The notes under the pieces are model-generated. The model ran no database searches, had not been told where the DNA came from, and was given only the letters and a program-made list of their open reading frames with translations. A stretch of DNA of 64,000 bases from positions 124,001 through 188,000 of the forward strand of contig NZ_FNTJ01000003.1 in assembly GCF_900105185.1 (NCBI RefSeq), written 5' to 3'. Numbering within the stretch: the first letter of the stretch is position 1; each line of letters starts with the position of its first letter. The position numbers and the translations under genes are program-made. Shown here piece after piece: positions 7,575-44,783 of the stretch. The DNA is from Pseudomonas saponiphila (GTDB lineage Bacteria; Pseudomonadota; Gammaproteobacteria; Pseudomonadales; Pseudomonadaceae).

Positions 7575-7810
7575 GCCAACCCCCGTGCAGACTGCTTTCC
7601 AGGCCAACGAAGTGCCGCCCCCTTTTATCTTGCCCTCCGCTTTTTCCGTGCCTTTGCGCTGCTGAGCTGGGTAATCAGGGGAGGCAGAATGGCGACTTCC
7701 AAAGCCCCTGGTCGGCAGGCGAGGGCCGAAGTATCTGCAGCCTGGCGGCCCGCGACTGTGCGCACCGAGCGCGTGCGTTCCGCAGGCGGATCGACACGGA
7801 GAAGGCCTGT

Positions 7811-8338: not shown

Positions 8339-8577
8339 GCAGTGGCCTCCGGAAACTGCCGCTCCAGCACCTCGCGCAGCATCTCCGTCATGGTCACGCC
8401 GCGGTTGAAGGCCGCCAGCTTGATGCGCGTGCGCAGTGCCGGCGTCACGTCCAGCGTCAGCCGGGCGCTGTAGCGCTCGGCCTTGCCGCTGTCGACGGCG
8501 GCGCCCTGGCGTATCCAGGCTTCGGCGTTCGGATCGGTCAGCGGGCGTGCGCCGATACCGATGCGCTTGCTGCTCAT
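8335..8577 (-). CDS. Ribbon-helix-helix partition/regulatory protein
   Basis: The 80-residue protein ends in a ribbon-helix-helix DNA-binding domain (YSARLTLDVTPALRTRIKLA followed by NRGVTMTEMLREVLERQF). I choose the ATG at 8577, which has GAGGTGG upstream; a GTG at 8586 would add three residues. It overlaps the parA stop and the traF start, so the three are translationally coupled. Small proteins of this type next to a short ParA usually act as the centromere-binding partner and as operon repressor. That role is inferred. Confidence 0.75.
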   Translation of the reverse strand: MSSKRIGIGARPLTDPNAEAWIRQGAAVDSGKAERYSARLTLDVTPALRTRIKLAAFNRGVTMTEMLREVLERQFPEATA

Positions 8578-24847: not shown

Positions 24848-24875
24848 CTAATAACGCCCGGCTGGCGTCCATTTT
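24848..24875 (-). promoter_or_regulatory. Recurrent backbone promoter-like element (copy for EAL fragment)
   Basis: On the minus strand ATGGACGCCAGCC is followed by GGGCGTTATTAGGG, 37 to 60 bases before the EAL start. It shares spacing and the CGTTA core with the copies at 27394, 27476, 30231, 39103, 44784 and 44811. Confidence 0.5.
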
Positions 24876-30279: not shown

Positions 30280-33200
30280 ATGAACGCATTTGCAGGCCAC
30301 CTCAGTCTTGAACCAATCCTGGCCGCCGTAGCTGCCAGCAATCCGCACGATGGCCAGGCTCGCGCCGACGCAATGGACCCGCGCCGCTCGGTGGTGTGTC
30401 TGGCTCCTGCTGGCTCTGGCAAGACGACTGAGCTGATCTACCGCATGCTGGCATGCCTTTCCGTAGCTATGCGCCCGGAAGAGGTGCTGGCAATCACCTT
30501 CACCACGTTGGCTGCCGGCGAAATCAAAGAGCGCATCATTGACGCCCTGTCGCTGGCTGCTGGCGGCGTTGAACCGCAGAGCGTTCATGAGAAGCCTCTC
30601 TATGCGCTCGGCCAGATTGTGCTCAAGCGTGACGCTGAGCTTGGCTGGAACCTGCTGGTGAACCCAGGCCGCCTGCGGATCATGACCTTCGATAGCTTCT
30701 CGGCATACCTCGCCGGTAAGACCCCGATCATGTCAGGGCTCGGCGGCGGACAGACCACGGACGACCCGCACCTGCTCTATCGCCAGGCCATTCTCGAAAC
30801 TCTGGGCTCGGTCAACGATGACTCGGCTCCAGAAGAGCTGCGCGCAGCCCTTGAGGCCGTACTGGGCTTCGCAAAGAACCAGTTCGAGAAGCTTGTCCCG
30901 ATGTTCAGCACCCTGCTGGCCAAGCGTGATCAGTGGGCACACGAGATCATTGGCCTGGACGTAGCCGAAATGCAGATGGCGCTAGCCCATTCCGTGGCAT
31001 TCGAGCTGCAAAAGTCGCTCGGTGACCTCTCTAACGGGCACATCGATGCTCTGATCAACGTCGTAGCAGATGCTGCCAGCGAGCTGCCGGGTTTTGAGTG
31101 GGCGGCGAATGTGCCTGCCGATCGAACCTCGGAAGCCTACTGCAACTTCATCCGTGACTTCTCCAGCTTCATCCTCACCAGCGATGGGAAACTGCGTGCC
31201 ACTGTGAATGCCAAGAATGGCTTCCCGGCAGGGCACTCCCTGACCAAGCGCATGAACGAGGTGCTGAAGGAGCTGAAGGGCACTGAAGAATCGACCCGCT
31301 ATGCAGAGGCGCTGAACGCCATTCAATGCCTGCCTGAGGTTGAGTTCGCCGAGTTCTCGGCAGAGATGTGTGGGCACTTCACCGTGATCCTGCGCTACCT
31401 CCTGGCCAACCTGACTCTGGCCTTCGAGGACAATGCCGCTCTCGACTTCCCGGAGGTAGCTGCCCGAGCTATTCAGGCCCTGGGTGTGGGCGCAGAAATT
31501 GGCGATGCTCTTCTTGAGGAAGATCGAATCAACCACATCCTGGTCGATGAGGTTCAGGACAGTTCGCCAAACCAGTATTACCTGCTGTCCAAACTGACCG
31601 CTGACTGGTCGCATGGCGATGGCCGTTCGATCTTCTTCTGCGGGGACAAGAGCCAGTCGATCTACCTGTTTCGCAACGCGACCCCGGAGACCTTCAACGA
31701 GATCATCCGCAGCAAGCGCTTCGGCAATCTGGAGCTTGAGCTGATCAACTTGGTGGTCAACTTCCGCTCGATGCCAGCGGTCGTTGAGTGGAACAACCAG
31801 TGCTACTCGAAGGTGTTTGCCGATAGCGACATCCCATTCATCCCGTCCGTGCCTGCACGTTCTGGTGCTGGCGCTGTAACGGTTAAGCCGATCAGCACAG
31901 GCGCGCTGGGTGAGGCGGAGGCGGTAGCAGACCAGATCGACGGCCTGATCAAGGCTGACGCAGAAGCCAGCATTGCGATCCTGGTCCGCGCCCGTTCGCA
32001 TATCAAACACATCCTGCCGGCCCTGAAGGCGCGCGGAATCACCGCCAGTGGCCAGAATATCGACCCTCTGAGTGAGTCGTCGCCGGTATCTGAAGTGGTC
32101 GCCCTTGTGCGCTCCCTCTGGCACCTTGCTGACCGCTCTTCGTGGTTCTGCCTCCTGCGCGCGGCATTCGTTGGGCTTTCCTGGGAGGATTGCGTAACCG
32201 TCGCACGGGGCGACCGCATTGTTCTTCACTCGCTGAAGAACCCGGCTGTTCAGGCGAAGCTCTCGCCGGAAGGTGCCATTCGAGTTGCCGCCTTCCTCAA
32301 GGCCTATGACGCCGTTACCGGCTCCAGTCGTGGTGACGACCTGTCTTGGGCAGCGAAAGCCCTCTGGGTTGGCCTGGGCGGGGCTGCATCCGTGGATAGC
32401 ACCGAGCTGGATGACGTGCTGACCGTTTTCGCTCTGCTGCTGAAGCACACAGTGAACGGCTGCCTGGAGAAGCCACAAGCTTTCTTCCGTGCTATCGACA
32501 GCCTGTATGCGACCCCTAAGCCGGGCCGCGTGGTGATCATGACCATCCACAACTCGAAGGGCCTGGAGTTCGATCACGTCATCATCCCTGCGCTCAACAG
32601 CCGTGGCGCTTCCGATGATGCGCCCCTGTTTTACTGGAAGCGGATCAATGACATCTTCGTTCTGGCTCCGAATCCCGGCTCTCAATGCGCGGATAACGCG
32701 CCCGAGAAACGACTCTTCAACTACCTGGGGCGCAAGGTCAAAGCCGAGATCAATGACGAGATTGCGCGCCTCGCGTATGTGATGACCACGCGGGCCAAGG
32801 TGACCTGCACGCTCTATGCGACCTACGAGAAGCTCGACGAGAAGACCGAGGCCTCCTATGCCAAGGGTTCAGTTCTGGAAAGCCTCTGGCCTGCAATCGA
32901 GGCCGATATTCGCAATGTTCAACCGGGCATCCCGCTACAGGAAGACGTTGATGTTGGCGTCCCATCTAAGGCCCGTTTGAGCCCAGGATTCAGCTTCCAA
33001 TTGCCGGCTGGCGTGTTCATCCCGGCATCGGGCAATGAGCATGCGCCGAGCGAGAACGACCTGAATGACGAGGGCCGCGATGAGCAGGGCAATGATCTGT
33101 GCGCGCGACTTGAAGGTATCGTCTATCACAAAGTCGTCGAGATCATTGGCCGCGATGGTGTGGATCTGTGGAGTGTTGAAAAGGTCAGTGGCAAGCAGGC

Positions 33201-33618
33201 CGCCATTGCCGCCATGATGCGCCGTGAGGGCTACCCGTCCGAGTCGCTCAACGCCGGCGTACAGCGTGTAATTGCGCTGGTGGTGAATACCCTTCAGAGT
33301 GCTCACGGTCAGTGGATTCTCAAGAAGCGGGACAATGGCGGTCAGGAAGTGCAAGTCAGTGCGTATCGCGGTGGCCGCTGGGTTCACCGGATTATCGACA
33401 AGTCCTTCGTTGAAGATGGTTATTTCTGGATCGTCGACTGGAAGTCGCCGGCTCCGAAGGAAGGCGTTAGCATCGAGGCCTTCGTTGAGGCAGAAGTGAG
33501 CCGGTACAGAGCGAAGATGGAGGAATACCGTCAGGGTGTGATTGACGCTGGCGTTGACCTCCCGGTTCGCCTGGCCCTTTATTTCCCGGCAGTAGATTGC
33601 CTCCGGGAGATCGGCTAA
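30280..33618 (+). CDS. AddA-like UvrD/Rep-family helicase-nuclease
   Basis: The 1112-residue protein is a superfamily 1 helicase. Motif I is APAGSGKTT at residues 42-50, motif Ia AITFTTLAAGEIKER, motif II ILVDEVQDSSPNQ near residue 421, motif III GDKSQSIYLFRNA, motif V or VI HNSKGLEFDHVII and RLAYVMTTRAK. The C-terminus carries a RecB-like nuclease with WIVDWKSP near residue 1047. This is the AddA arrangement. A plasmid-borne AddAB-like pair is unusual and may protect or recombine incoming DNA, replace chromosomal RecBCD or act as anti-phage defence. It ends at a clear terminator (33636-33670). Confidence 0.87.
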   Translation: MNAFAGHLSLEPILAAVAASNPHDGQARADAMDPRRSVVCLAPAGSGKTTELIYRMLACLSVAMRPEEVLAITFTTLAAGEIKERIIDALSLAAGGVEPQSVHEKPLYALGQIVLKRDAELGWNLLVNPGRLRIMTFDSFSAYLAGKTPIMSGLGGGQTTDDPHLLYRQAILETLGSVNDDSAPEELRAALEAVLGFAKNQFEKLVPMFSTLLAKRDQWAHEIIGLDVAEMQMALAHSVAFELQKSLGDLSNGHIDALINVVADAASELPGFEWAANVPADRTSEAYCNFIRDFSSFILTSDGKLRATVNAKNGFPAGHSLTKRMNEVLKELKGTEESTRYAEALNAIQCLPEVEFAEFSAEMCGHFTVILRYLLANLTLAFEDNAALDFPEVAARAIQALGVGAEIGDALLEEDRINHILVDEVQDSSPNQYYLLSKLTADWSHGDGRSIFFCGDKSQSIYLFRNATPETFNEIIRSKRFGNLELELINLVVNFRSMPAVVEWNNQCYSKVFADSDIPFIPSVPARSGAGAVTVKPISTGALGEAEAVADQIDGLIKADAEASIAILVRARSHIKHILPALKARGITASGQNIDPLSESSPVSEVVALVRSLWHLADRSSWFCLLRAAFVGLSWEDCVTVARGDRIVLHSLKNPAVQAKLSPEGAIRVAAFLKAYDAVTGSSRGDDLSWAAKALWVGLGGAASVDSTELDDVLTVFALLLKHTVNGCLEKPQAFFRAIDSLYATPKPGRVVIMTIHNSKGLEFDHVIIPALNSRGASDDAPLFYWKRINDIFVLAPNPGSQCADNAPEKRLFNYLGRKVKAEINDEIARLAYVMTTRAKVTCTLYATYEKLDEKTEASYAKGSVLESLWPAIEADIRNVQPGIPLQEDVDVGVPSKARLSPGFSFQLPAGVFIPASGNEHAPSENDLNDEGRDEQGNDLCARLEGIVYHKVVEIIGRDGVDLWSVEKVSGKQAAIAAMMRREGYPSESLNAGVQRVIALVVNTLQSAHGQWILKKRDNGGQEVQVSAYRGGRWVHRIIDKSFVEDGYFWIVDWKSPAPKEGVSIEAFVEAEVSRYRAKMEEYRQGVIDAGVDLPVRLALYFPAVDCLREIG

Positions 33619-33635
33619 TCGAATCCCAGCATACG

Positions 33636-33670
33636 CCTGGCTATTCAGCCGAACGCCAGGCCCTTTTTTC
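33636..33670 (+). terminator. Intrinsic terminator after the AddA-like gene
   Basis: GCCTGGC (33636-33642) pairs with GCCAGGC (33656-33662) and is followed by CCTTTTTT. It ends the helicase-nuclease transcription unit. Confidence 0.82.
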
Positions 33671-33717
33671 GTTTGCGCGCCGCCTCAGCGTTGGCCGCGA
33701 CCAGGTATAGGAAACCT

Positions 33718-34026
33718 ATGGCAGTCCCTATTGAGTCAATTCAAGTTGGGCGCGTATTCGAGTTCAAGAACGGCCCCCGCCGGGTGGTGAAACTCTCAGA
33801 GCCACTTGGAAGTGGTTTCCAGGTCACCTGGGAGTATGCCGATGGCGTAAAGCGGAATGGTAAGCTCGGCGGTAGCCAGTGGGTGCATTACTTCAGAAGT
33901 GATGCGCGCCGGGAGTTGGATGGTAAAAGCTCTGACTCTCTGCTTGCCGAGTTCAAGGCCAGCGGCCAGGCCAGCTATGTCGAATGGCTGGAGGCTCAGC
34001 TGCGTGCCGCACGAGCTGCTAAATGA
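33718..34026 (+). CDS. Hypothetical protein, 102 aa
   Basis: The ATG at 33718 follows ATAGGAAACCT. The protein reads like a small SH3- or SPT-type beta-barrel (IQVGRVFEFKNGPRRVVKLS, then FQVTWEYADG) followed by a helix. I do not recognise a named family. Its stop overlaps an upstream ATG of the next gene (34023), and five small genes follow in series, so it leads a small operon. Confidence 0.72.
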   Translation: MAVPIESIQVGRVFEFKNGPRRVVKLSEPLGSGFQVTWEYADGVKRNGKLGGSQWVHYFRSDARRELDGKSSDSLLAEFKASGQASYVEWLEAQLRAARAAK

Positions 34027-34040
34027 TCAAGGAAATACCC

Positions 34041-34286
34041 ATGTCGCAGCATCTTGATGAAGCCCTACTGGAAAGTGCACTGACGGCAGCCGTAGACCGG
34101 TGCATCCACATCGACTCTACCCAAGAACGTAACATTGCGATCCGAAGAGCGGCGGTTGAAGAAGGCTACCGCCTTGGGCTGGAAGAAGCTGACAAGCTCC
34201 GCGCTTTGCTCGAACGACTCCACCCTCACGTGCGCGGTTGCGATTCCGCCCTCTGGGACGAGTTCCGCGCTGCACTCAAGAGTTAG
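34041..34286 (+). CDS. Hypothetical helical protein, 81 aa
   Basis: I choose the ATG at 34041, which has AAGGAAATA upstream; an ATG at 34023 would overlap the previous stop. The protein is all-helical and acidic (RRAAVEEGYRLGLEEADKLR). No domain is recognised. It lies within the small-gene operon after the helicase-nuclease pair. Confidence 0.68.
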   Translation: MSQHLDEALLESALTAAVDRCIHIDSTQERNIAIRRAAVEEGYRLGLEEADKLRALLERLHPHVRGCDSALWDEFRAALKS

Positions 34287-34298
34287 GTTGAATCACTC

Positions 34299-34679
34299 AT
34301 GCCCCGCACCATCGAGAGCATCGTTGAAAACCACCGGGTAGCAGCAGCACGTCGCGCAGCTGGTAAGCCTGTATGGGATCGTAAAATCGACATTAAAGCG
34401 GTCTTGTATGAGGATCAGGCGAACACCTCGAACGAGCACTCGGCTCAGGTGGCTAATCGCATTGGTGCCTTATTGCGTAGCCAGGTGCCGGCCGAATGGC
34501 TGGATTGGAACTCCACCGACCAGGACGAAGAATTGACTCAAATCGTTGAGGGTATGGAAGCACTGAAGCCGGATAGTTACGAAGGCGAAGACGATTTCAC
34601 TCCGCTGGACGACCTCAATAGCATGCTGGCCCAGCTCTACGACTGGGCTGACAGTAAGCGTGTTTGGCTGGGACTCTGA
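34299..34679 (+). CDS. Hypothetical acidic protein, 126 aa
   Basis: The ATG at 34299 lies 12 bp after the previous stop. The product begins with a basic helix (TIESIVENHRVAAARRAAGK) and becomes strongly acidic (DQDEELTQIVEGMEALKPDS). No family is recognised. Position and orientation tie it to its neighbours at 34041 and 34696. Confidence 0.68.
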   Translation: MPRTIESIVENHRVAAARRAAGKPVWDRKIDIKAVLYEDQANTSNEHSAQVANRIGALLRSQVPAEWLDWNSTDQDEELTQIVEGMEALKPDSYEGEDDFTPLDDLNSMLAQLYDWADSKRVWLGL

Positions 34680-34695
34680 TTAAGGGAAAAACACC

Positions 34696-34902
34696 ATGCC
34701 CATGCTTGAACCCTGGAGTAATCACGATCAACCGGACGGCAGCATCGAGGTGCGGCGCGAAGGCGTATTGCAGTACACCCTTGTTTGGGCTCAGGCCTTC
34801 GGTCAGTGGGAGTTGCGCCGGGCTGGCGAGGCTGAAGTGATTGAGCGAGACCAGTACCGGAACGACCTGTTTTCCGCCATCCAATCTGGGCGAATCAAGT
34901 GA
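34696..34902 (+). CDS. Hypothetical protein, 68 aa
   Basis: The ATG at 34696 follows AAGGGAAAAACACC. The short product looks like a beta-rich single domain (SIEVRREGVLQYTLVWAQAF) ending in a helix. No family is recognised. Its TGA overlaps the GTG of a possible longer start of the next gene. Confidence 0.65.
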   Translation: MPMLEPWSNHDQPDGSIEVRREGVLQYTLVWAQAFGQWELRRAGEAEVIERDQYRNDLFSAIQSGRIK

Positions 34903-34916
34903 TAGGTAATCGGATT

Positions 34917-35168
34917 ATGGGTATCAGATTTTCCGAAGGTAACGAGCGCATTGAACTATTACGAGCGCGCTGGGCTGCTGGTGAAGCAACACCTGAAGAA
35001 ATTCGCGAGGTGCGCGATTTTCTAACTTGCAGTGAGAATTCCCCTAAGAGATCGAGCAGGTTTTTTAACTCGCTTGAATTCTGGGCCCTAGTGGCGATTG
35101 GGCTCACTATCTATTTATTGATCACCGAGATCATGCCGACGTTCCGTGAATGGGCAGGACTTGCCTAG
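34917..35168 (+). CDS. Small tail-anchored membrane protein, 83 aa
   Basis: The protein has a soluble helical head (RIELLRARWAAGEATPEEIR) and one C-terminal membrane segment (FWALVAIGLTIYLLITEI). I use the ATG at 34917; a GTG at 34899 that overlaps the previous stop would add six residues. No family is recognised. It is the last gene of the operon and is followed by a strong bidirectional terminator. Confidence 0.65.
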   Translation: MGIRFSEGNERIELLRARWAAGEATPEEIREVRDFLTCSENSPKRSSRFFNSLEFWALVAIGLTIYLLITEIMPTFREWAGLA

Positions 35169-35210
35169 GACACGATCAATATTGGGTGCTGATGGTTGAG
35201 GGAAGGGCGA

Positions 35211-35242
35211 CGAAAAAGGCAGCCAGATGGCTGCCTTTTTCG
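35211..35242. terminator. Bidirectional intrinsic terminator
   Basis: A perfect stem with arms starting CGAAAAAGGCAGCC and ending GGCTGCCTTTTTCG surrounds a 4-base loop. A- and T-runs on both sides allow termination in both directions, between convergent genes. Confidence 0.92.
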
Positions 35243-35260
35243 TTGGTTCAGGGGGGGAGG

Positions 35261-35785
35261 TTAGTCCTCCCGAGCGCGGATGCCCTCGATGGACAGGTAC
35301 GCAGCGGAGTCCACCCCGCCGCAGTTGTTGATCAGGGCCAGCTCTTCGCATGACGAAACCAGCTCGGCGAAATCAATGTTCGGCTCTTCTGCTACCGGGT
35401 CATAGCCGACGTTGTTCAGATACCAGTTGCTCAGATAGCCCTGATCCTGACCGACGAACTCGGCACCAGAGACTACTTGCAGCCAACCATACCCGGTAAG
35501 GGAGACGATGGGGGCAGTGCTCTTCGCCACGGTCACCTGGCAGTCGAACCAGTCCTCAGCCGGGTCCGCTGCATTGGCAGACTCCACCGAAATGACGAAC
35601 TCCCCAAGCACACGCTCATAGACCGGCTTGCCTGCCTTCATGGCCTGATGGAATCCATTGGCCGATGGGCTGATGGGCGTCCCGTCAACAGTCAGGCACG
35701 GGTGGATGAAGTCGCGCGTGAGGGACTTCAGGTTGAAACCTGCCTCGCGCAGGAGATTGGCGGCTTTGATCAGGTCAGCGTTCAC
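35261..35785 (-). CDS. Hypothetical acidic protein, 174 aa
   Basis: I choose the GTG at 35783-35785, which follows AGAGGAACCATC; the longer frame to 35911 crosses a promoter-like element. The product is a soluble acidic protein (ESANAADPAEDWFDCQVTVA, then EPNIDFAELVSSCEELALIN). No domain is recognised. It is transcribed from the element at 35844-35869 and ends at the bidirectional terminator. Confidence 0.7.
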   Translation of the reverse strand: MNADLIKAANLLREAGFNLKSLTRDFIHPCLTVDGTPISPSANGFHQAMKAGKPVYERVLGEFVISVESANAADPAEDWFDCQVTVAKSTAPIVSLTGYGWLQVVSGAEFVGQDQGYLSNWYLNNVGYDPVAEEPNIDFAELVSSCEELALINNCGGVDSAAYLSIEGIRARED

Positions 35786-35843
35786 GATGGTTCCTCTTGC
35801 TGCTGTGCGCCCTGTTGCAGGGAGTTGCTCATAGGGTGAACCA

Positions 35844-35869
35844 AGTATCATGGCCCGGCTGGCGTGCCA
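35844..35869 (-). promoter_or_regulatory. Recurrent backbone promoter-like element
   Basis: On the minus strand TGGCACGCCAGCCGGGCC is followed by ATGATACT, about 60 to 85 bases before the GTG start at 35785. The CGTTA core is altered here to CCATGA, so this is a weaker match. Confidence 0.45.
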
Positions 35870-35962
35870 GCAGGCCCGTGAGGCAGGCTGAAAATGGCCG
35901 TTAGGATGCAACAGGTGCTCTCAGGTAAGAGCTGTTCACCATAACCAACCGAAGGAAGATGC

Positions 35963-36229
35963 ATGAAGCTGAAAATGTTCACCCTCCTGGCAGTAGCTGC
36001 TGTTCTCGCCGGCTGCGATAAGCACGAGACTGACCTGACTGGTAAGGCATGTTTGGGGGCCAACAACGACACCGTGGTAGAATCCCATCGCGACAAGTGC
36101 TCGGCCGGTGATGTGGTAGCCACCAAGCATCCCGCCTACTTCTGCGACTTCACCTATGCGGTGACGTACAACGCAATGAATTCCGCCTTCTGCGTGTATA
36201 GAGGCGAGCGAGAAGAACGAATCCAGTGA
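35963..36229 (+). CDS. Small lipoprotein, 88 aa
   Basis: The ATG at 35963 follows GAAGGAAG. The signal is a lipobox (LLAVAAVLAGC, with Cys18 modified). The mature part has four more cysteines (ACLG, KCSAG, FCDF, FCVY), which could form two disulfides in the periplasm. No family is recognised. A partial copy of the recurrent promoter element (GGCCGTTAGGATG) ends at 35908, so it may belong to the same regulon. Confidence 0.75.
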   Translation: MKLKMFTLLAVAAVLAGCDKHETDLTGKACLGANNDTVVESHRDKCSAGDVVATKHPAYFCDFTYAVTYNAMNSAFCVYRGEREERIQ

Positions 36230-36259
36230 CTCCCGCACAGCCATGCCTTGGCGGCCTGG

Positions 36260-36286
36260 GATCAGGGGTAGAGCCTACCCCTGATC
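36260..36286. terminator. Strong hairpin between convergent small genes
   Basis: GATCAGGGGTA pairs perfectly with TACCCCTGATC around a 5-base loop. There is no clear T-run, so it may be a terminator of weak type or a structural element. It lies between the lipoprotein gene and a minus-strand small gene. Confidence 0.6.
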
Positions 36287-36304
36287 AAGTAGCCAAGCTG
36301 GCTT

Positions 36305-36472
36305 CTAGCCCGATGTAACCGCGGCCTGAATGAGGCGAGCTGCTTCTTCTACGGCCTCTTCGCGGGATTCGTGGTAGCCGGTGACCAAATAGCCGCACCT
36401 GCCATCAACCCAATGGCCGACGCTGGACGACTTCACGGCATAACCCTTCCGCTGGAGGGTTCTGATGTGCAT
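36305..36472 (-). CDS. Small protein, 55 aa
   Basis: The ATG at 36470-36472 follows TCGGAGGCGAA, a strong ribosome-binding site. The product is MHIRTLQRKGYAVKSSSVGH continuing to WVDGRCGYLVTGYHESREEA and ending QAAVTSG. It reads like a small DUF-type fold with two strands and a helix. No family is recognised. It is transcribed in the same direction as the genes at 36506 and 36982, so a minus-strand operon of small genes is likely. Confidence 0.65.
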   Translation of the reverse strand: MHIRTLQRKGYAVKSSSVGHWVDGRCGYLVTGYHESREEAVEEAARLIQAAVTSG

Positions 36473-36505
36473 TTCGCCTCCGAGTTCTGGCGATCAATTC
36501 CGCGG

Positions 36506-36892
36506 CTACAGCTCTTCGGCACCCGCAACAGTGAAGCCCTCTGCCGCAAGTTCCTCAATCAAGAATGCTTCAGTTGTGGGGAGATTTGCCTTGATCAGGT
36601 TGAGGCGGCGCTGGATTCGCTTTATAGCCCGGTAGTGCTCTTCGCCCTTAAACTCCCATCCGATCAGTCGCGCCAAGGCGTGTATCACCTGCTGCTCAAG
36701 CGCTTTGCGCTCTGAGCGGAAGCGTCCTATGGACGTTGGGGTGACGGGTGCAAGAGGGCCAATAAGCCGCCAGCCGCCCGTGCCAACTTGCCGGGCAGAA
36801 ACGCCGGCGACGACGGCAGTAATGACCGCATCGAATTCGGCCCGATCGATTACCTTCTCCGGCTGATCGATTTTGCTTTCCGCTGATGACAT
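36506..36892 (-). CDS. Hypothetical protein, 128 aa
   Basis: I use the ATG at 36892, which has GGAGACCTGTGAG upstream; starts at 36907 or 36922 are possible. The protein is basic in the middle and helical (RRLNLIKANLPTTEAFLIEE), with a GTGGWRLIGPLAPVTPTSIG loop region. No domain is recognised. It lies between two very small genes read in the same direction. Confidence 0.66.
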   Translation of the reverse strand: MSSAESKIDQPEKVIDRAEFDAVITAVVAGVSARQVGTGGWRLIGPLAPVTPTSIGRFRSERKALEQQVIHALARLIGWEFKGEEHYRAIKRIQRRLNLIKANLPTTEAFLIEELAAEGFTVAGAEEL

Positions 36893-36981
36893 CTCACAGG
36901 TCTCCATGGTCGGTAGATTCAATGTGCAGGGGAGCAGCTGCGATGGAGTGTGCGGACTTTATCGCAGCGAGCCCCCCGTGT

Positions 36982-37161
36982 TCACGCTTCGTGATCGAGC
37001 GCTTCTTCGAGCGACTCAACAACATCGTTGATGCTGTCTGGATCACGATGGAAATCGTTCAATAAGTCCAGGGCACCGCACTCAGTGGCTTCGGTGAAGG
37101 CCTGGCGCAATCGCATAAGGGCGGCCCGGTGTTCGGGCGACAGTTCCCGTGAATTTCCCAT
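36982..37161 (-). CDS. Small protein, 59 aa
   Basis: The ATG at 37159-37161 follows GAGAGGAAACAG. The product begins MGNSRELSPEHRAALMRLRQ and ends DVVESLEEALDHEA; it is acidic and all-helical. No family is recognised. It heads the minus-strand series of small genes (36982, 36506, 36305). Confidence 0.65.
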   Translation of the reverse strand: MGNSRELSPEHRAALMRLRQAFTEATECGALDLLNDFHRDPDSINDVVESLEEALDHEA

Positions 37162-37249
37162 CTCTGTTTCCTCTCGGCTGTTTTGAGCCCGCCTGAGCGA
37201 AGCGCCAGGCGAGTTGGCAAGGTAAACGTGAGGGGAGCGTGCCGGCAGG

Positions 37250-37762
37250 CTATCGGACGGGGATCTTGATCGGGATGCGCTTATGGAGCGGGGTGGGGTT
37301 TGCAGCCTTCTTGGCCCGAATTGAGCGCACAGCTTCGGGCTTCAAATCTACGAGGCCCTGAAATGCCCGCTGGTCGTGATAGATCCAGACCGTCTTGTCC
37401 CGGTAGGAGATGAGTCCGACAACCTCGTGCTGTGGCCAGCGCAGCTTTGCGATGCCGATGTACAGAATGACCTGGTAATACTCCCGCGGCCGTGGCCCTC
37501 GCTTCATCAGGCGAGCCTTGTACTCACCAACAATGATCCTGGGCTTCTTCCTGTCCTCAAAAATGGCATCCGGAACACCGCCGATCCCAGAGTGGGTCAA
37601 CATAATGGATTTGGACTCGCCGCCGAGGTCAGAGCCAATGAGCTTGTATCTGCCCGGCTCCAGCTTGAAGGTTCGGTGTACGCCCTTTTGAGCAGTGGTC
37701 CTGGTTGTGAGGTAGAGCGCTACCGCGATGAGGACGATAGCGATTGGAAGAAAGAGACTCAT
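37250..37762 (-). CDS. Membrane-anchored PD-(D/E)XK-type nuclease-like protein, 170 aa
   Basis: An N-terminal membrane segment (FLPIAIVLIAVALYLTT) is followed by a compact domain with GGVPDAIFED (Pro-Asp at 64-65) and IIVGEYKAR (Glu80-x-Lys82). This is the PD-(D/E)XK signature of Dna2/Cas4-like nucleases. The short insert between the two motifs and a conserved Tyr/Gln stretch (YYQVILYIGIAKLRWP) fit that fold. It overlaps the upstream gene by 4 bp and is the last gene of a four-gene operon with the uS10-like and Crp-like genes. Activity at the membrane is inferred. Confidence 0.72.
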   Translation of the reverse strand: MSLFLPIAIVLIAVALYLTTRTTAQKGVHRTFKLEPGRYKLIGSDLGGESKSIMLTHSGIGGVPDAIFEDRKKPRIIVGEYKARLMKRGPRPREYYQVILYIGIAKLRWPQHEVVGLISYRDKTVWIYHDQRAFQGLVDLKPEAVRSIRAKKAANPTPLHKRIPIKIPVR

Positions 37763-37965
37763 GAGAGGTACAGGTAGAGAGCAATGGCGGCCACGGTGAG
37801 GATCACATAGAGAGCTTTGCTCGGCAGCCTGCCAACACGGCTGTGATCGCGCGCCCCGATCCGTGCAGCCTTGGCGTTGTAAGGCTTGCCACCGGCCTTA
37901 CAGAAGGCATCCGGATTTTCGGCGTAGAAAGACAGGTTTGTGACGCTGATACGGTCGTGCTTCAT
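37759..37965 (-). CDS. Tail-anchored small membrane protein, 68 aa
   Basis: The ATG at 37965 overlaps the stop of the Crp-like gene by 4 bp. The product begins MKHDRISVTNLSFYAENPDA, has a basic middle (YNAKAARIGARDHSRVGRLP) and ends in one membrane segment (ALYVILTVAAIALYLYLS). It also overlaps the next gene by 4 bp. No family is recognised. It may tether the neighbouring nuclease-like protein. Confidence 0.7.
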   Translation of the reverse strand: MKHDRISVTNLSFYAENPDAFCKAGGKPYNAKAARIGARDHSRVGRLPSKALYVILTVAAIALYLYLS

Positions 37966-38669
37966 ACAGGGACTTCCCCGCAATAGAGGAACTTCTTGTA
38001 CCCGTCGAAGACGATGGTGCCGGCTTGCTCAAGCTCTCTGAAAGCCCTGGCACCAATGCGGCGGTTGAACACCCCCGCGTAATTCAGCAGCTGCTCCTTC
38101 GTGCAGGAAACAATGGTGCCGTTGCGACCTCTCGGGACATCTGGGTGAAGGGCCAGGGTGGTTGCCACTCGCAGCAGCCGGCTTGTCTCATTGAGCAGCA
38201 GTGAGTGTGCGGCCACCCCGTGCAGCGCGAGCAGGGTCAGCTCAGTTGCCATGATCCCAGCCTCGCTGTTCTTCACGGCATCCCTGAACTCTTTGTAGTG
38301 CTTCCCTCCCACATGCAGGAGGTGAACTTCGTTTCTCGCGGTGAAGGAAAAATCCACAGACGAATACTGGGGCTTGGTGATGATGTCCCCACGCTTCATG
38401 GCCGTCACAAACAACGGTTTCGACGAGTGTGACGCATCGATGCCGGTGACAACGACACAGCCACCCAGGACGATGAACAGATCGTCTGCGCCTGGCCGCA
38501 GCACCGTCCCAGACTTGATGGAGCATGTCTGGCCATAACTTGATGCGGTGACCAGCCAGCTGGCCCAGCTGCCCTCCAGAAGGGGGGTCTTGTTGAAGTA
38601 TTCAGGTTCTGGCGTATCGAGCACCGACACATGGGCCGCAGCTGGGTCGAATTGAAGTGCACCTTTCAT
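37962..38669 (-). CDS. Crp/Fnr-like regulator, 235 aa
   Basis: The N-terminal half is a cupin-like ligand domain (GADDLFIVLGGCVVVTGI, then MKRGDIITKPQYSSVDFSFT). The C-terminal part is a winged-helix domain (CTKEQLLNYAGVFNRRIGAR, then ELEQAGTIVFDGYKKFLY), the Crp/Fnr arrangement. Phosphate-binding RSA-type residues of cAMP sites are not visible, so the ligand is probably different. It overlaps its neighbours by 4 bp on both sides. It is the best local candidate to control the recurrent promoter-like element. Confidence 0.72.
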   Translation of the reverse strand: MKGALQFDPAAAHVSVLDTPEPEYFNKTPLLEGSWASWLVTASSYGQTCSIKSGTVLRPGADDLFIVLGGCVVVTGIDASHSSKPLFVTAMKRGDIITKPQYSSVDFSFTARNEVHLLHVGGKHYKEFRDAVKNSEAGIMATELTLLALHGVAAHSLLLNETSRLLRVATTLALHPDVPRGRNGTIVSCTKEQLLNYAGVFNRRIGARAFRELEQAGTIVFDGYKKFLYCGEVPV

Positions 38670-39079
38670 TTCGGCTCCTTAAGTTCGTACTGCGACTCGT
38701 ATGGCTCGATCTTGACGTTGACGCTGTTCGGTAGAGTGAGAGAGATCATTGCCGCTACACCAATTGCGCTTGGCCGAATGATCAGCAGTACGTTGCGGAT
38801 ACGCTTCGGCCCCGGAATAAACATTCCTCGTTTCCCCTCGGAAGGCACCTCCCGAAGGATCATGTATCTGCGCCTCTCAGTCGGCATGCACAGAGGCCCG
38901 CGGACCATTGAGCCATCAGACTTCTCAAACGATTCCTTGATCAGCGCTGCGGCCGACCGAACAGCCTCGATGCGGACACCATCGATCACGACGTAGAAGC
39001 TCTTGCTCACGAAATTGCTTCGCAAGGTCTTCGTATCGGATAGGTCCCATGGGACTGTGACTTTGGCTTCGGTAAACAT
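38666..39079 (-). CDS. Ribosomal protein uS10 (NusE)-like protein, 137 aa
   Basis: Residues 28-125 align with the entire uS10 fold. The block VRGPLCMPTERRRYMIL (59-75) matches VRGPIPLPTRKERFTVL of bacterial S10 in position and character, and LTLPNSVNVKI (114-124) matches LDLAAGVDVQI. A 27-residue extension precedes the fold and a 13-residue tail follows. The ATG at 39079 lies inside a longer frame that begins in the promoter. S10 also acts as NusE in transcription antitermination with NusB. A uS10-like gene outside the ribosomal operon, coupled by 4-bp overlap to a Crp-like gene, is unusual. Similarity is by eye and must be tested. Confidence 0.65.
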   Translation of the reverse strand: MFTEAKVTVPWDLSDTKTLRSNFVSKSFYVVIDGVRIEAVRSAAALIKESFEKSDGSMVRGPLCMPTERRRYMILREVPSEGKRGMFIPGPKRIRNVLLIIRPSAIGVAAMISLTLPNSVNVKIEPYESQYELKEPK

Positions 39080-39102
39080 GCTGGCGCGCTGTGGTATTTC
39101 CC

Positions 39103-39126
39103 GTAATAACGGAGCGCCGGTGTCCA
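39103..39126 (-). promoter_or_regulatory. Recurrent backbone promoter-like element (uS10-like operon)
   Basis: On the minus strand TGGACACCGGCGCTCC is followed by GTTATTACGG, 24 to 47 bases before the start at 39079. It is nearly identical to the element before the EAL fragment (24848), including the following GGGAAAT. Confidence 0.55.
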
Positions 39127-39220
39127 TTTTTGGTCGATGTCACAGCAAAAGCGTTATTGGTGTGTGAGGCGGGGGCTGGGGTCATGTTGGCCCCAGCCGG
39201 GTGATTCGCAGGAAACAGCG

Positions 39221-40243
39221 TCAGGCGGGGATGGCTGGGCTGGTAGGAAGGGACTTGCGGAAGAGCGAACCGTATTTCATGCGGTAGACCCGCGCCTGAT
39301 GAAAGAGCACCAGGTGCATCCCTCCAAAGAACCACACCAGGCCGAAAGGCGTAGCGAAAGTCAGAAGAGATGTGCTGATTATTTTGTGCAGGGTGATCGG
39401 GAATTCAGTGTCAACTACCATCCGGTTTTCTGACCCTTCATGGTAAAGGGCCACCAGAACCTTTGCGTTGGCATCAACGCCGCGGAATATCTCGCCGCTA
39501 GGCTTTGCCACCTCTAGCCAAGAGGTCACATAGAGTGGGCTGTCCTTGCTCTTGTTCAGGACATCCACTACGGAGGGAGCCACCTTGAGCACTTCTGCGT
39601 CAGGCTTGTCGCTGAACTCGAATCCCATCAGATGATCCTGCTGGCACAGGTAATCGAACCTGTCCGTATAAGTAGCGACGACCTCCTGGAGGTACTTCTG
39701 TCGCTGTTCAATCACTGCGCCTTGCAGGTTGTAGGCAAAGACAAAGTGAATCATCAGCTGGAAGGAGACGAAGGCAAACAGGAAGAAGGTGATGTGGAGG
39801 CGCATGAATGACTTGAAGCGTCGATCGAGGACGAGCCTGACCAGCAGGGTGACTGCGATCAGCGCAAGCATGAACACATCGCCACGCTGCCGCTCTCTGG
39901 ATGTCATCTCATAACCGAAGGTATCGCCTAAGGCGAACAGGAGCTTGTTCCAGACATTGATCTCTTCCTGGACAAGCGCTGCGGCAAAGAGCGCAAGAAG
40001 CCAGAAGATGTTTATGTCGCGGCGGAAGTGGGCGTATATCCCGGCCCAAAGGGCTGTGAACAGAAGGAATACGCCGAAGTCTTCAAGTGCCTGGTTGACC
40101 GTAAAGCCGCTGGGGAAGGTCTCGCTGGGTATTGAGCAGAACGTGCCAACTGCCACGAAGATGCAGAGGAACAGTGGAATCTGGATCTGCCAGGGAAGTG
40201 CATGCCCTGCATATTGGATGGCGCGTTGGATGGAGTGAGTCAT
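39221..40243 (-). CDS. Polytopic membrane protein with large periplasmic domain, 340 aa
   Basis: I use the ATG at 40243 (MTHSIQRAIQYAGHALPWQI). Five to six membrane segments are visible: IPLFLCIFVAVGTF, FGVFLLFTALWAG, IFWLLALFAAALV, FMLALIAVTLLV and ITFFLFAFVSFQLM. A soluble domain of about 120 residues follows (YLQEVVATYTDRFDYLCQQD) and a final segment (LLTFATPFGLVWFFGG). No family is recognised. The gene runs toward the uS10-like operon but is separated from it by about 140 bp including that operon's promoter-like element. Confidence 0.75.
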   Translation of the reverse strand: MTHSIQRAIQYAGHALPWQIQIPLFLCIFVAVGTFCSIPSETFPSGFTVNQALEDFGVFLLFTALWAGIYAHFRRDINIFWLLALFAAALVQEEINVWNKLLFALGDTFGYEMTSRERQRGDVFMLALIAVTLLVRLVLDRRFKSFMRLHITFFLFAFVSFQLMIHFVFAYNLQGAVIEQRQKYLQEVVATYTDRFDYLCQQDHLMGFEFSDKPDAEVLKVAPSVVDVLNKSKDSPLYVTSWLEVAKPSGEIFRGVDANAKVLVALYHEGSENRMVVDTEFPITLHKIISTSLLTFATPFGLVWFFGGMHLVLFHQARVYRMKYGSLFRKSLPTSPAIPA

Positions 40244-40375
40244 AGTTCTCTGATGGGCCGTGACTAGAACGCGCGAGTCTATTCGTGGTTTTTTTTGCGA
40301 GCGAGCCAAGTGGGCACCGCAAAATGTTCACTCCGATGCAGTTATTAGGAAAAACAACTGCCAAGGTAAAACCGC

Positions 40376-40744
40376 ATGGGTCACTCTGACCGCAGACACA
40401 CTCGGTACGCACTCCCCGACATCCTGTTTGTCAGTCAGGAGATCAAGCGTCTAGGAATCATCGGTTCTGTGTTGGGGTGGGGGCCTTGCCACATCAAGGA
40501 CATCTCCTACGCAGGCATGCTCCTGACCACGACTAAGCGGATGACGATCGGCGACAAGATTACTGTGAAGCTGAACTTCAAGACCGGCGTTGAGCTGTTG
40601 TTCACCTGCAACGTCGTCAACGCCTCTACCGATCACGGTAGCGGTGATCTGAAGGTCGGTGTCAGTATTGTTGAGCCAGGCGGCGATACTCCTGAGGGAG
40701 CATTCCTCAGCGGCCTTGGCGATAAGTTCAAAGCGCTACCCTGA
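40376..40744 (+). CDS. PilZ-domain c-di-GMP effector
   Basis: The 122-residue single-domain protein has the PilZ signature: RRHTR (RxxxR) at residues 6-10 and DISYAG (D/NxSxxG) near residue 43, both needed for c-di-GMP binding. The first residue is the ATG at 40376. It is divergent from the membrane protein at 39221 and ends at a strong terminator (40751). With the HD-GYP and EAL genes in this window it points to repeated c-di-GMP cargo, though its target is unknown. Confidence 0.85.
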   Translation: MGHSDRRHTRYALPDILFVSQEIKRLGIIGSVLGWGPCHIKDISYAGMLLTTTKRMTIGDKITVKLNFKTGVELLFTCNVVNASTDHGSGDLKVGVSIVEPGGDTPEGAFLSGLGDKFKALP

Positions 40745-40750
40745 AAACAA

Positions 40751-40779
40751 AGAACCCGCCAAGAGGCGGGTTCTTTTTG
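40751..40779 (+). terminator. Intrinsic terminator after the PilZ gene
   Basis: AGAACCCGCC pairs with GGCGGGTTCT around AAGA and is followed by TTTTG. It ends the PilZ unit. Confidence 0.93.
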
Positions 40780-40846
40780 TAAAGTCGGGCAAATGGAGCG
40801 GCACCACAGCAGGAGATAAGAGGGGGGGGTGTCTTATAGGAAAGTC

Positions 40847-42106
40847 CTACCCATCTGCCCGAATCGGTTTGTGACTGCGGTACAACAGGCCAAAGGCCAA
40901 CAGCGCGATCAACATTCCGAACATAGTAATGACAATTTTTGGATAAGTCACTACTACCAAATAGGGGCTCCAACCCCGCGAAACAGCTGGCCTCGACTGA
41001 AATCCAACCATCCCTGAATCGTTCCGTTCAGCGGAACTCGCGATGTGTACGGCATTCTCTGCCATTTCTCGATTGCTCAGGAAGCTCGTGTCGATGGGCT
41101 TGGTCACTGCATCTGTAAAAGCCTGAACCGCGAAACTGGTCGCATTTTTTGACACTTTGGCCTGTATTGTCACTGGCAATTCACTGGTCAAACTCACCCA
41201 GCCAGCTCGATTTGACTGGTGGACGACGGCCTTGACGCTGTATGCCAGAGGTTCCTTTCTCAGTTCTGCCTGGAGCGCAAGGCGTGCCATCTCAGCAGCC
41301 TCTCGCGCCTTCGGAGCGGGCAGATCCATGCGGCCCGGTATCGCAATCAGGACTTCGAAAAGCCCAGTCTCACCCGATGCCTGCATGCCGTTCTCTTCTG
41401 GCTCAAGCGGAACAACTCCAGCCGAAAGTTTGCGCTCCGGTGGGCTGACCTCTGGTCTGGATTGGCTGATGCGGTTGAGTAGTGCAGCGCCATCGATCTC
41501 GCCCGCTGGCCCGATTGCCGACAGCGTGTAGTTTTCGACCCCGTAGAAGCTATCGAAGGCAGCCTGAATCTCCGTAGCACCAATATCCGCAACAGGCCGC
41601 GTTTCGGTACCGCAGGCCACTTGCGTGCCGGCGATATGGTCCGCTGACCACGACTCGAAGGGGTGCGGAATGCTGGTAAAGCCTTTAGCTGCTCCCAGCT
41701 CAAGCCGGATGGCCTCAACCTCTCGGGCAGCCGATGCTGCCGGCAGAGTCTTCCGGCCCAGGGTTTCCAGGATGGCCTCTTCGATCAGATCGCCCGTGCC
41801 TGGCCGCCCCTCGAACGTGAACTCGGTGAAGTCCTGGCGAGTGATCGCAGTCGCCCGCACGCCTTGAGCGGCAAGGGTGGCAATGAAGTCTGCCGGCGTT
41901 TCCCCGAACTTGGTTTCGGAAAGCACCACATGCTCAATCAGGTGAGGCAGCTCTCGTGAGCCGCAGCTATCGAGCAGGCCGTAGTCGACCTCGACGCGCA
42001 CGGCTATAGGCCCAGGCCGATCAACCTCAATGAAGGAGCCGGCCACGGCCTGGCCAGCCAGTACGGCAAGAGCAGCTGCAAGCGCTGATCGACGGAACAG
42101 ATTCAT
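40847..42106 (-). CDS. Secreted, membrane-anchored M16-family metalloprotease-like protein
   Basis: The 419-residue protein has a signal peptide (ALAAALAVLAGQAVA, cut near residue 22), an inverted zinc motif H55-L-I-E58-H59 (HXXEH, the M16 signature) and candidate third ligands Glu131 or Glu136. A C-terminal membrane segment (IVITMFGMLIALLAFGLLY) anchors it. The length fits one M16 lobe pair of the small type, so a partner or dimer is expected. The start overlaps the upstream gene by 4 bp. It closes an operon that begins with the Tus-like gene. M16 proteases in the periplasm process peptides; the substrate is unknown. Confidence 0.8.
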   Translation of the reverse strand: MNLFRRSALAAALAVLAGQAVAGSFIEVDRPGPIAVRVEVDYGLLDSCGSRELPHLIEHVVLSETKFGETPADFIATLAAQGVRATAITRQDFTEFTFEGRPGTGDLIEEAILETLGRKTLPAASAAREVEAIRLELGAAKGFTSIPHPFESWSADHIAGTQVACGTETRPVADIGATEIQAAFDSFYGVENYTLSAIGPAGEIDGAALLNRISQSRPEVSPPERKLSAGVVPLEPEENGMQASGETGLFEVLIAIPGRMDLPAPKAREAAEMARLALQAELRKEPLAYSVKAVVHQSNRAGWVSLTSELPVTIQAKVSKNATSFAVQAFTDAVTKPIDTSFLSNREMAENAVHIASSAERNDSGMVGFQSRPAVSRGWSPYLVVVTYPKIVITMFGMLIALLAFGLLYRSHKPIRADG

Positions 42107-43230
42107 CCCAGGCGTGCCCCGAAAACTCGGCGCACAACATTGGTCGCGATTGTGTCCGGGGTGAGATCCATCGCCGTGTAGCGAGTGCCGCCCGCCGTGG
42201 TGTGGTAGACGAACAGCAGCTTCTGCCCCTGCTGGCCAACGTAGGTGGCAGCCTGAGTCAGCACCAGATTCAGCTCGGCCGATTCAGTGATTGTCAGGTC
42301 AATGTCGAAGCCGAACACCAGTCGCGTTTCGGCCATTCCCCACAGCTCAGCGCTGGGTTCCGCTTCGATGATCACGATATTGATGTCGCGCTGCTGGGCG
42401 AGCGTGAACCCGGCGCGCAGGCTTTCACTGTCTTTGCGCAGGCGCATGCCGTCGATGATCAGCGAGCGCCCACTGGGCGACTTATCAATCAGGGCGGAGA
42501 AGTGAGCGGCAACCAACTGCTCCAGCGTGTATTCCCGGTCAGGGAGGATGCTGATAGCCAGGGTGCTGCCCTTGGCGCGGGAGCCCAGTAGCAGGGAGCC
42601 CTGATTCTCACGCAATGCCCCGGTCAACACGGTGTGCTCGCGGGAGTAGTTGTTGATTCGGCGATCCGCGTCAGGCCGCGTCCGCACCAGAACGACCTGC
42701 AAGCCCTCACGGTTGGTGAGACAGAGTTCCTGATCGAGGTAGTGCGAGAAGGCCTCGGCATCCTGGCGGACCACGTAGGTGTGCCCGTGGTACTTCCGGC
42801 CGCACAGAATCTGGCCGCTGGCCTTGATGCCGTGGCGCTGCTCAAACTTCGAGAGCATGGCCATGTCACCGGAGTGAGGGTCAATCTGCTCGGAGCGGGC
42901 GTAGCCAACCAGGGCGTCGAAATTGGTGAAGTTGAACATGCAGGCCACCAGATCGCGCGGGGCCAGTCCTTTTGTCACGACTGGCAGGCCTGGCAGGCTC
43001 AAGTTCGTGGCCATTCGCACGAACTCGATCATCTGGTGGGCTGGATCTTTGGCCAGAATCTCAGCCGGGGTGTGGATGATGTGCAGCCCAGGCACCGGCT
43101 CACCCATCACCCCGCTGATGCTGTCGAATGAGGAATAGCCGTACGCCCGCGCAAGAATGGCATTGCCCTCTTCAGGGGTCAGCTTGAAAGCCTTGTTGGC
43201 CGTGAGTCTTGCGCGTTGCGTGTTGTACAT
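42103..43230 (-). CDS. Hypothetical protein with repeated helical GYxxFD motifs, 375 aa
   Basis: I start at the ATG of 43230 (MYNTQRARLTANKAFKLTPE). Two short helical units end in similar motifs: AILARAYGYSSFDSISGV near residue 35 and LVACMFNFTNFDALVGYARS near residue 110. These resemble the small helical domains fused to some glyoxalase-superfamily proteins. The second half is an alpha/beta region (LQVVLVRTRPDADRRINN, then DINIVIIEAEPSAELW) without a visible P-loop. It is soluble, and it lies between the Sel1 and M16 genes. No function can be named. Confidence 0.68.
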   Translation of the reverse strand: MYNTQRARLTANKAFKLTPEEGNAILARAYGYSSFDSISGVMGEPVPGLHIIHTPAEILAKDPAHQMIEFVRMATNLSLPGLPVVTKGLAPRDLVACMFNFTNFDALVGYARSEQIDPHSGDMAMLSKFEQRHGIKASGQILCGRKYHGHTYVVRQDAEAFSHYLDQELCLTNREGLQVVLVRTRPDADRRINNYSREHTVLTGALRENQGSLLLGSRAKGSTLAISILPDREYTLEQLVAAHFSALIDKSPSGRSLIIDGMRLRKDSESLRAGFTLAQQRDINIVIIEAEPSAELWGMAETRLVFGFDIDLTITESAELNLVLTQAATYVGQQGQKLLFVYHTTAGGTRYTAMDLTPDTIATNVVRRVFGARLG

Positions 43231-43231
43231 G

Positions 43232-43771
43232 TCAGGAATCCAGCAAGTTGGTAATAGGCGCGTGACGTTGTACGAAGTCCATATAGGCATCGATCACGCT
43301 CTGGTCCGCGCGCTCACCGCATGCATTGGCGAGTACCCGGTACGCTTTGAGCACGGAAGGGGCAAACATTGCACCGCCGCTCTCAAACAGCTTTGACAGT
43401 TTAACGACCGCAATCGGAAGTCCGGCCGCAGCTGCCCGCTCAATCATTTCGAGGCCTTGCTCGGGATTCGACTCAGGACGCTGCATCAGGTAGTGCTGCA
43501 TCCCGAGCACCAGTAGTGCATGGAGAGATGCTGGATTCGTTGCGCAGGCTCTACGGAGCCAGTAGTCGCCGCGATCTTCATTCGTCGCGACGCCAAGGCC
43601 TTGCCGGAGGCAGCGGGCTACTTGGTACATGGCTTCAGCATTTCCCTGCTCTGCCAAGTCGAGGATTTGTTGGTAGGCCTTGCTCTGTACCTTTTGGTCG
43701 CCGGTGGCCAGATCGGCAGTCAAGGTTGCAAGGGCAGCGGTGCCCTCGCGGCGCTGGTGCGGAGTGTGCAA
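43232..43771 (-). CDS. Sel1-like repeat protein, 179 aa
   Basis: The best start is a TTG at 43771 behind AGAGAGAAAC, 10 bp after the Tus-like stop; the longer frame overlaps the Tus-like gene. Sel1/TPR units are visible at LAEQGNAEAMYQVARCLRQG, the following CATNPASLHALLVLGMQHYL and IERAAAAGLPIAVVKLSKLF. Such repeats mediate protein contacts. There is no signal peptide. It sits between the Tus-like gene and the unknown at 42103 in one operon, 1 bp apart from the latter. Confidence 0.75.
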   Translation of the reverse strand: MHTPHQRREGTAALATLTADLATGDQKVQSKAYQQILDLAEQGNAEAMYQVARCLRQGLGVATNEDRGDYWLRRACATNPASLHALLVLGMQHYLMQRPESNPEQGLEMIERAAAAGLPIAVVKLSKLFESGGAMFAPSVLKAYRVLANACGERADQSVIDAYMDFVQRHAPITNLLDS

Positions 43772-43781
43772 GTTTCTCTCT

Positions 43782-44744: not shown

Positions 44745-44783
44745 CGATATCTCCTGGCGTGCATCCACTGTACGGGTTCAATA

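Follow-up and report, generated by a model that had tools for sequence, protein, structure and literature searches.

What use does a Pseudomonas plasmid have for a version of its own of uS10, the ribosomal protein that is also the transcription antitermination factor NusE? The question is raised by four minus-strand genes that run from position 39079 down to 37250 of a 64,000-nucleotide stretch of Pseudomonas saponiphila DNA (hereafter the window), which comes from one of the four contigs, 397,710 bp long, of a 7.38-Mb genome. The genes encode a uS10/NusE paralog (hereafter S10L), a Crp/Fnr-like regulator and two small membrane proteins that look like parts of one nuclease (Table 1), while the host's own rpsJ, nusB and nusG are found on a separate contig (C1). 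An earlier note on this DNA had read the four genes as a single operon with 4-bp overlaps, and an ATGA overlap is indeed found at every junction. We propose that S10L serves the transcription programme of the plasmid itself as an adaptor of the NusE type, a reading to which we assign a probability of about 40%.

The likeness to uS10, claimed in the earlier note for the whole fold, held when the 137-residue protein was compared with profiles and structures. The window protein matches PF00338 over residues 33-124 (E=0.0011; 19.6 bits, cut-off 21.2) and NCBIfam rpsJ with E=6.7e-6 and scores far under the equivalog cut-offs (26.3 of 85 bits for NF001861 and 21.1 of 72.75 bits for TIGR01049). PF00338 matches 16/16 aligned S10L members, the window copy included (best E=3.3e-7), and a profile made from these 16 sequences matches 59 distinct PDB chains at E<=0.01, all of which are named S10, uS10, NusE or S20 (best E=7.9e-9). 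Judged by profile and predicted fold together, S10L is confirmed as a true paralog within the uS10/NusE superfamily. Its identity to canonical S10 averages 24.9% (14 Pseudomonadota sequences) and is 27-31% for the window protein.

Conservation was counted in 89 S10Ls (88 of 91 database matches, the partial P0170-P0172 being excluded, plus the window protein) against canonical S10s from 14 of 31 loci, all Pseudomonadota, the 17 others being omitted as the gene was not located by the search expression. In this alignment, 66 columns are invariant among the 14 canonical S10s. The canonical rRNA-binding loop motif (SREQFE.RTHKR...D) is lost in the S10Ls: none of the 13 canonical-invariant columns of the ribosome loop (54-75) is kept in at least 80% of them, and mean retention is 3%, as against 60% in strand 2 (36-53), 34% in the C part (76-102) and 26% in the N part. 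Invariants specific to S10L are the WDL motif of the N-terminal extension, an arginine cluster (R69, R70, R71 and R93, in 89/89 sequences) and the C-terminal extension, and the loop is similar in length to that of uS10. With its ribosome-loop motif lost, S10L is therefore not an ordinary ribosomal protein. The loss fits an extraribosomal role, of which it is no proof, because NusE without the loop still binds NusB and RNA polymerase (RNAP), according to the available part of PMC4642336, where a loop-less NusE was used in complex with NusB and the RNAP/NusG face of NusE is placed opposite its NusB and ribosome faces.

S10L may instead be an alternative ribosomal protein, one that replaces uS10 in some 30S subunits and biases them toward plasmid mRNAs, some of which look leaderless. 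The uS10 fold, the similar loop length and the new invariant arginine cluster agree with such a role, as does the precedent of bL31A/B, where paralogs less than 40% identical can share one ribosomal site (PMC10931766, available part). Considering that the rRNA-contact motif is lost, that identity to canonical S10 is about 25%, that both ends bear extra conserved extensions and that the NCBIfam rpsJ score is 26.3 of 85 bits, we regard this alternative as quite unlikely. As for S10L as a NusE-type adaptor, the hydrophobic pattern on the side of the NusG C-terminal domain and RNAP is in part retained (V96 in 85/89, L87 in 75/89 and I100 in 80/89), and Asp19, on the presumed NusB-binding surface, is kept in 80/89.

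The S10L gene is found in Pseudomonadaceae plasmids. In 72,556 plasmid records, tblastn detected S10L in 135 from this family (133 of Pseudomonas and one each of Stutzerimonas and Halopseudomonas), and one Collinsella rpsJ at E<=0.01; the Crp-like protein was found in 135 records and nuclease part B in 135 Pseudomonadaceae records and 26 records of Vibrio, Photobacterium and Pseudoalteromonas, the equal counts not being paired record by record. A species-level genome scan gave seven loci, all in Pseudomonas, and no S10L relative was found in a viral contig collection. Among 398 genomes of the host family, 123 matched S10L, the plasmid type being found only in the window's own genome; the other 122 matches are weak (E 1.8e-4 to 9.9e-4, about 33% identity), include two (G378 and G382) whose alignment crosses a stop codon, and are taken, on that identity, as chromosomal rpsJ. 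The order of the four genes (g1-g2-g3-g4) is kept in 22/22 loci outside the window (L002-L008, L042-L048, pQBR103, pQBR57 and L105-L110), several of which are near-copies of one another, and the conserved co-occurrence that the earlier note had named as support is thus found; in L007 and L008 some of the operon genes are unannotated and present as open frames. The presence of S10L and the Crp-like gene in these loci is not independent evidence, because the loci were mostly fetched via those matches; pQBR103 and pQBR57, which were chosen beforehand, both carry S10L. As judged from gene block and order, the operon is part of a backbone common to the IncP-2, pQBR103 and pQBR57 megaplasmids, whose distant synteny is described in the available parts of PMC7070040 and PMC13391042.

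Many S10L copies are labelled "30S ribosomal protein S10" in RefSeq, and the gene is catalogued yet unstudied as far as literature searches show. No description of a plasmid S10/NusE paralog or of this operon was found among the matches listed, which agrees with the earlier note, where no described system with this gene set was known. Word searches in the main text of papers on pQBR103, pQBR57 and IncP-2 plasmids gave no ribosomal protein among the plasmid genes, and the promoter-like element described below was not looked for there.

That element links the operon to other plasmid genes. The 16 S10L leaders that were aligned share GGGGC-N10-CACTATTA or a variant (16 of 23 S10L loci including the window; the omitted L042, L046, L048, L105, L108, L109 and L110 are mostly near-copies), with the second box 32-39 nt ahead of the start codon in the 15 leaders measured and the spacing one shorter in L007. 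A second copy is present in 10 of the 16 Pseudomonadaceae loci scanned, two of these being weak: it precedes an annotated EAL gene in L003, L005, L007 and L073, lies inside the annotated EAL start in L004 and is at the corresponding place in five unannotated contigs. In nine whole plasmids the pattern GGGGN{10,11}CAYTATYR has 41 matches (1 to 7 each), 13 of them at sites known beforehand, vs 1 match for the reversed pattern. pQBR103 and one IncP-2 plasmid together have 13 of the 41 sites, for which the next genes were looked up; they are the S10L operon, an EAL gene, a diguanylate cyclase and a radical-SAM/PEP operon at two sites each and, at the remaining five, a hypothetical/type IV secretion system DNA-binding-domain operon, a RecD2-like/TraM conjugation operon, a Tat-signal protein and two hypotheticals. 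At three sites on two plasmids (L111, which is pQBR103, near 20114 and 42861, and L115 near 80920) the element ends about 4 nt before an ATG, and the mRNAs there would be nearly leaderless, provided that transcription starts just after the element, a point in favor of an alternative ribosomal protein.

The element has the drifted form TGGAC-N10-CGTTATTA on the contig of the window. This form has six matches in the whole 7.38 Mb of the genome, all of them on the window's contig, and over ten Markov controls of the contig there was a single match, in the sixth. Four of the six sites precede homologs of genes that bear the element elsewhere (the conjugation operon, S10L, the diguanylate cyclase and the Tat protein, whose homolog here looks interrupted); the fifth is at the EAL position, ahead of what looks by eye like an EAL start, and the last is ahead of a response-regulator-like gene. 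The 127-aa open reading frame (ORF) at the fifth site has no Pfam match and resembles the start of an EAL protein by eye, and annotated relatives have an EAL gene with the element at the corresponding place. These matching gene positions are a stronger argument for the element than its count on the contig. Taken together, the sequences suggest that the operon belongs to a plasmid-private regulon with a shared promoter-like element. S10L probably does not start at the in-frame ATG at 39127, which is not conserved and overlaps the first bases of the element (39104-39126).

In several S10L leaders the element lies between complementary arms (by eye), with a 14-bp stem in L003 (11944-11990). These arms bear on another explanation, in which the nuclease module is controlled by a dedicated pair, S10L and the Crp-like protein, and S10L is an RNA- or protein-binding repressor of its own operon. 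Ribosomal proteins commonly autoregulate, and the four genes are translationally linked, both of which would suit such a pair. The EAL-gene copies of the element in L004 and L043, examined with their flanks, have no complementary arms by eye, so a hairpin is not general to the element, and in two pAQU1-type plasmids of Vibrionaceae the nuclease pair occurs without an adjacent S10L or Crp-like gene; we consider the regulatory pair unlikely. A conserved RNA hairpin or autoregulatory site in the S10L leader was accordingly rejected, a DNA promoter-like element fitting better because the two EAL copies lack arms, and Rfam gave nothing at the gathering threshold in 33000-44000. A sigma54 promoter, considered for the GG-N10-GC spacing of some lineages, was dropped, since CC takes that place in most sites (by eye). 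No consensus sigma70 promoter was found in 36900-40900, vs 1.7 in shuffles.

A candidate reader of the element in the NusE-type adaptor reading is provided by the plasmids themselves, since S10L plasmids encode a divergent sigma70-like protein, labelled "sigma factor-like", beside dnaN. This factor is present in 9/9 S10L plasmids and 0/2 Vibrionaceae plasmids, and in 133 records at a coverage of at least 80%; sigma70 region 4 is above the Pfam cut-off in 3/3 plasmid factors. The second gene of the operon encodes a regulator that was called a Crp-like winged-helix protein in the earlier note, and the family bears this out. HTH_Crp_2 is found in 10/15 aligned members and cNMP_binding in 8/15 (best E=0.0067). 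The window copy can be aligned with its relatives, has only a weak NF008732 match (E=0.065) and has no Pfam match at E<=1. The 235-aa protein is predicted from this alignment to have a Crp-type winged helix. The Crp-like gene looks broken in L109 (pZXPA-20-602k, 3626-4120), where the annotation gives it a shorter product.

The last two genes seem to encode the halves of a single membrane nuclease of the Cas4/RecB-like PD-(D/E)XK class, the GxxxH, D, ExK and QxxxY motifs of which are found together with a model-based fold of that class. Residues A15, P18, G37, H41, G45 and P48 of part A are invariant in 14 sequences, and D65, E80-x-K82 and Q97xxxY101 of part B are invariant in 42 aligned sequences (36 of 81 database matches, five loci and the window). 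The N-terminal part of a natural fusion, P0088, is homologous to part A and its C-terminal part to part B. The membrane PD-(D/E)XK protein of the earlier note is thus upheld by invariant motifs and modelled fold; of its separate tail-anchored protein, the hydrophobic C-terminal segment stands (by eye), and a function of its own does not, as the models suggest that the protein probably carries the GxxxH portion of the nuclease. None of 15 part B members had a match to a Pfam nuclease model at E<=1, and part A members had none either. No invariant or near-invariant cysteine was found in the alignments A2, A3 and A7, and the nuclease is, by its sequence, not Cas4 proper, which is defined by four Fe-S (iron-sulfur) cysteines. 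The split nuclease with an identical 4-bp overlap is also found in MOBH/MPF_F plasmids (L071, pVb677-tet, 7711-8405; L072, pAQU1), and in pAQU1 part B is truncated beside an ISAs1 transposase gene.

The earlier note had also raised a defence system with the nuclease as effector. On that view the operon would serve plasmid defence or exclusion, with S10L and the Crp-like protein as sensors of infection and with incoming DNA destroyed by the membrane nuclease. The putative membrane-anchored nuclease has its catalytic motifs intact, and a UvrD and PDDEXK pair is nearby. PADLOC gave no match for five proteins at E<=1, a search that new systems would escape; the same gene block in divergent megaplasmids is backbone-like, unlike an accessory island, and the promoter-like element is common to conjugation and cyclic di-GMP genes. 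We consider this the least probable of the alternatives. Subversion of phage antitermination, another suggestion of the earlier note, is not supported, no evidence for it having been seen and no direct test made.

If S10L is a NusE-type adaptor, the plasmid sigma70-like factor would initiate at the promoter-like element, and S10L would bind host RNAP, NusG or NusB on plasmid operons. It would act on RNAP through its NusG/RNAP-facing side and the conserved extensions, not through the ribosome loop, and would make elongation more processive or couple it to ribosomes, while the Crp-like protein may tune the operon or the regulon. The two-piece nuclease would sit in the inner membrane, its catalytic parts facing the cytoplasm, and may trim or degrade DNA there, probably in a role linked to DNA transfer; it would be co-expressed with S10L and not be its effector. 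The steps reached by computation are the predicted uS10 fold, the loss of the ribosome motif, the operon with its shared element and the modelled fold of the split nuclease. We put forward tentatively the wider proposal of a private apparatus, which would comprise a sigma70-like factor of the plasmid's own, a lineage-drifted promoter class, a NusE paralog acting on RNAP (or on ribosomes) and a co-operonic membrane nuclease for DNA transfer.

Several observations weigh against these proposals. The predicted structure of S10L is of moderate confidence only. His15 and Arg16 of uS10, presumably NusB contacts, are Tyr and Ile/Val in S10L, and V84, M88 and I100, presumably NusG-facing, are only partly kept (V84 in 20/89, M88 in 0/89 with Ile in 69, I100 in 80/89); a literature search for two of the contacts attributed to NusB and NusG gave nothing. 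The boxA-like octamer GCTCTTTA, which was not derived from the host's own boxA, occurs 8 times on the contig vs 6-10 times in five shuffles, as expected by chance, and the window's contig yielded neither a NusB nor a NusG encoded by the plasmid itself. Sigma70 region 2 is under the Pfam cut-off in two of the three plasmid factors and unseen at E<=0.01 in the third, and that the plasmid sigma may read the element is suggested by co-occurrence only. The enrichment of the element on the contig is post hoc, because the pattern was drawn from the contig's own sites, and the reversed TGGAC-type pattern has four matches in the whole genome. For the nuclease, Foldseek searches with parts A and B gave only three rows at E<=0.001, all of entry 4ic1, with low query TM-scores (0.27-0.29) and a large root-mean-square deviation. 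With boxA at chance, classical NusB/boxA antitermination is not supported here; control of the plasmid's own transcription, which the earlier note had listed among its possibilities, remains the best guess.

Table 1. Features of the S10L operon and its surroundings (window positions unless a contig is named).
Feature	Position	Strand	Remarks
S10L, uS10/NusE paralog, 137 aa	38666..39079	-	N-terminal (EAK...WDL) and C-terminal (Y..Q..L) extensions, both conserved
Crp/Fnr-like regulator, 235 aa	37962..38669	-	N part cupin-like, C part winged helix
Nuclease part A (transmembrane protein), 68 aa	37759..37965	-	GxxxH motif, then one hydrophobic C-terminal segment (transmembrane by eye)
Nuclease part B, 170 aa	37250..37762	-	hydrophobic N-terminal segment (transmembrane by eye); PD-(D/E)XK core; Q97xxxY101
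Promoter-like element TGGAC-N10-CGTTATTA	39104..39126	-	24 nt upstream of S10L start codon
Second window copy of TGGAC-N10-CGTTATTA	24849..24871	-	precedes 127-aa ORF starting at 24830
UvrD-type helicase	30280..33618	+	PF00580 E=1.3e-31; convergent with operon; conserved neighbour
PDDEXK_1 nuclease, 894 aa	27527..30211	+	PF12705 E=7.7e-12; adjoins UvrD helicase (AddAB-like arrangement)
PilZ-domain protein	40376..40744	+	PF07238 E=7.6e-8; kept upstream of the operon in most annotated relatives
Upstream membrane protein, 362 aa	39221..40309	-	resembles pQBR103/pQBR57 proteins at corresponding place (by eye)
Sigma70-like factor	contig C3 252306-253781	-	outside window, adjoins dnaN-like gene; 37-42% identity

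In most annotated relatives the operon is followed downstream by a UvrD helicase and a PDDEXK nuclease, and its upstream neighbours are PilZ, membrane, peptidase-like and Ter-type proteins. The 362-aa membrane protein of the window (39221..40309) has no significant family in Pfam and NCBIfam profile searches. A Tus-like replication-terminus-binding protein (43782-44768, minus strand; PF05472, E=8.2e-11), also found near the operon in the annotation of relatives, is a possible replication-fork barrier of the plasmid. Two pairs of open frames with identical lengths of 316 and 561 aa, at 17978-20300 and 22083-24405 (minus strand), suggest two copies of one insertion element, near the second of which the EAL-like 127-aa ORF (start 24830) ends. 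An endonuclease/exonuclease/phosphatase domain is fused to an Ada-type metal-binding domain at 26298-27371 (minus strand). A search for NusB also matched a 483-aa open frame on contig C2, which is probably an RsmB-type protein.

According to the available parts of the respective papers, IncP-2-type megaplasmids spread multidrug resistance in Pseudomonas (PMC7070040) and pQBR plasmids are models of plasmid-host conflict (PMC8544851). The operon suggests that such megaplasmids run part of their own gene-expression machinery. If so, a plasmid could separate its expression from that of the host in a new way, by a NusE paralog of its own under a plasmid-only class of promoters, and this would give plasmid-host conflict a concrete source.

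Compared with known systems, S10L shares with uS10/NusE (PF00338; PDB 2kvq, 3d3c and 3r2c) the predicted fold over residues 25-127, the RGP and T44-equivalent motifs and the equivalents of P79, V96 and I100, whereas it differs in being about 25% identical, in the lost ribosome-loop motif, the new invariant arginine cluster and the extensions at both ends, and in its place in a plasmid operon with Crp-like and nuclease genes. Compared with the PD-(D/E)XK enzymes Cas4, RecB, AdnA and lambda exonuclease, the putative nuclease presents a familiar fold in an unusual layout: two genes encode it, and both products have a hydrophobic segment. From Cas4 it differs also in lacking conserved cysteines of the Fe-S type. 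The window has the same gene block in the same order as the pQBR103, pQBR57 and IncP-2 (pBT2436-like) backbone. ActX-like proteins are plasmid-borne NusG/RfaH paralogs, and S10L resembles them in that a mobile element has its own version of a general elongation factor; it differs from them in belonging to the NusE/uS10 type and in its plasmid-private promoter-like element.

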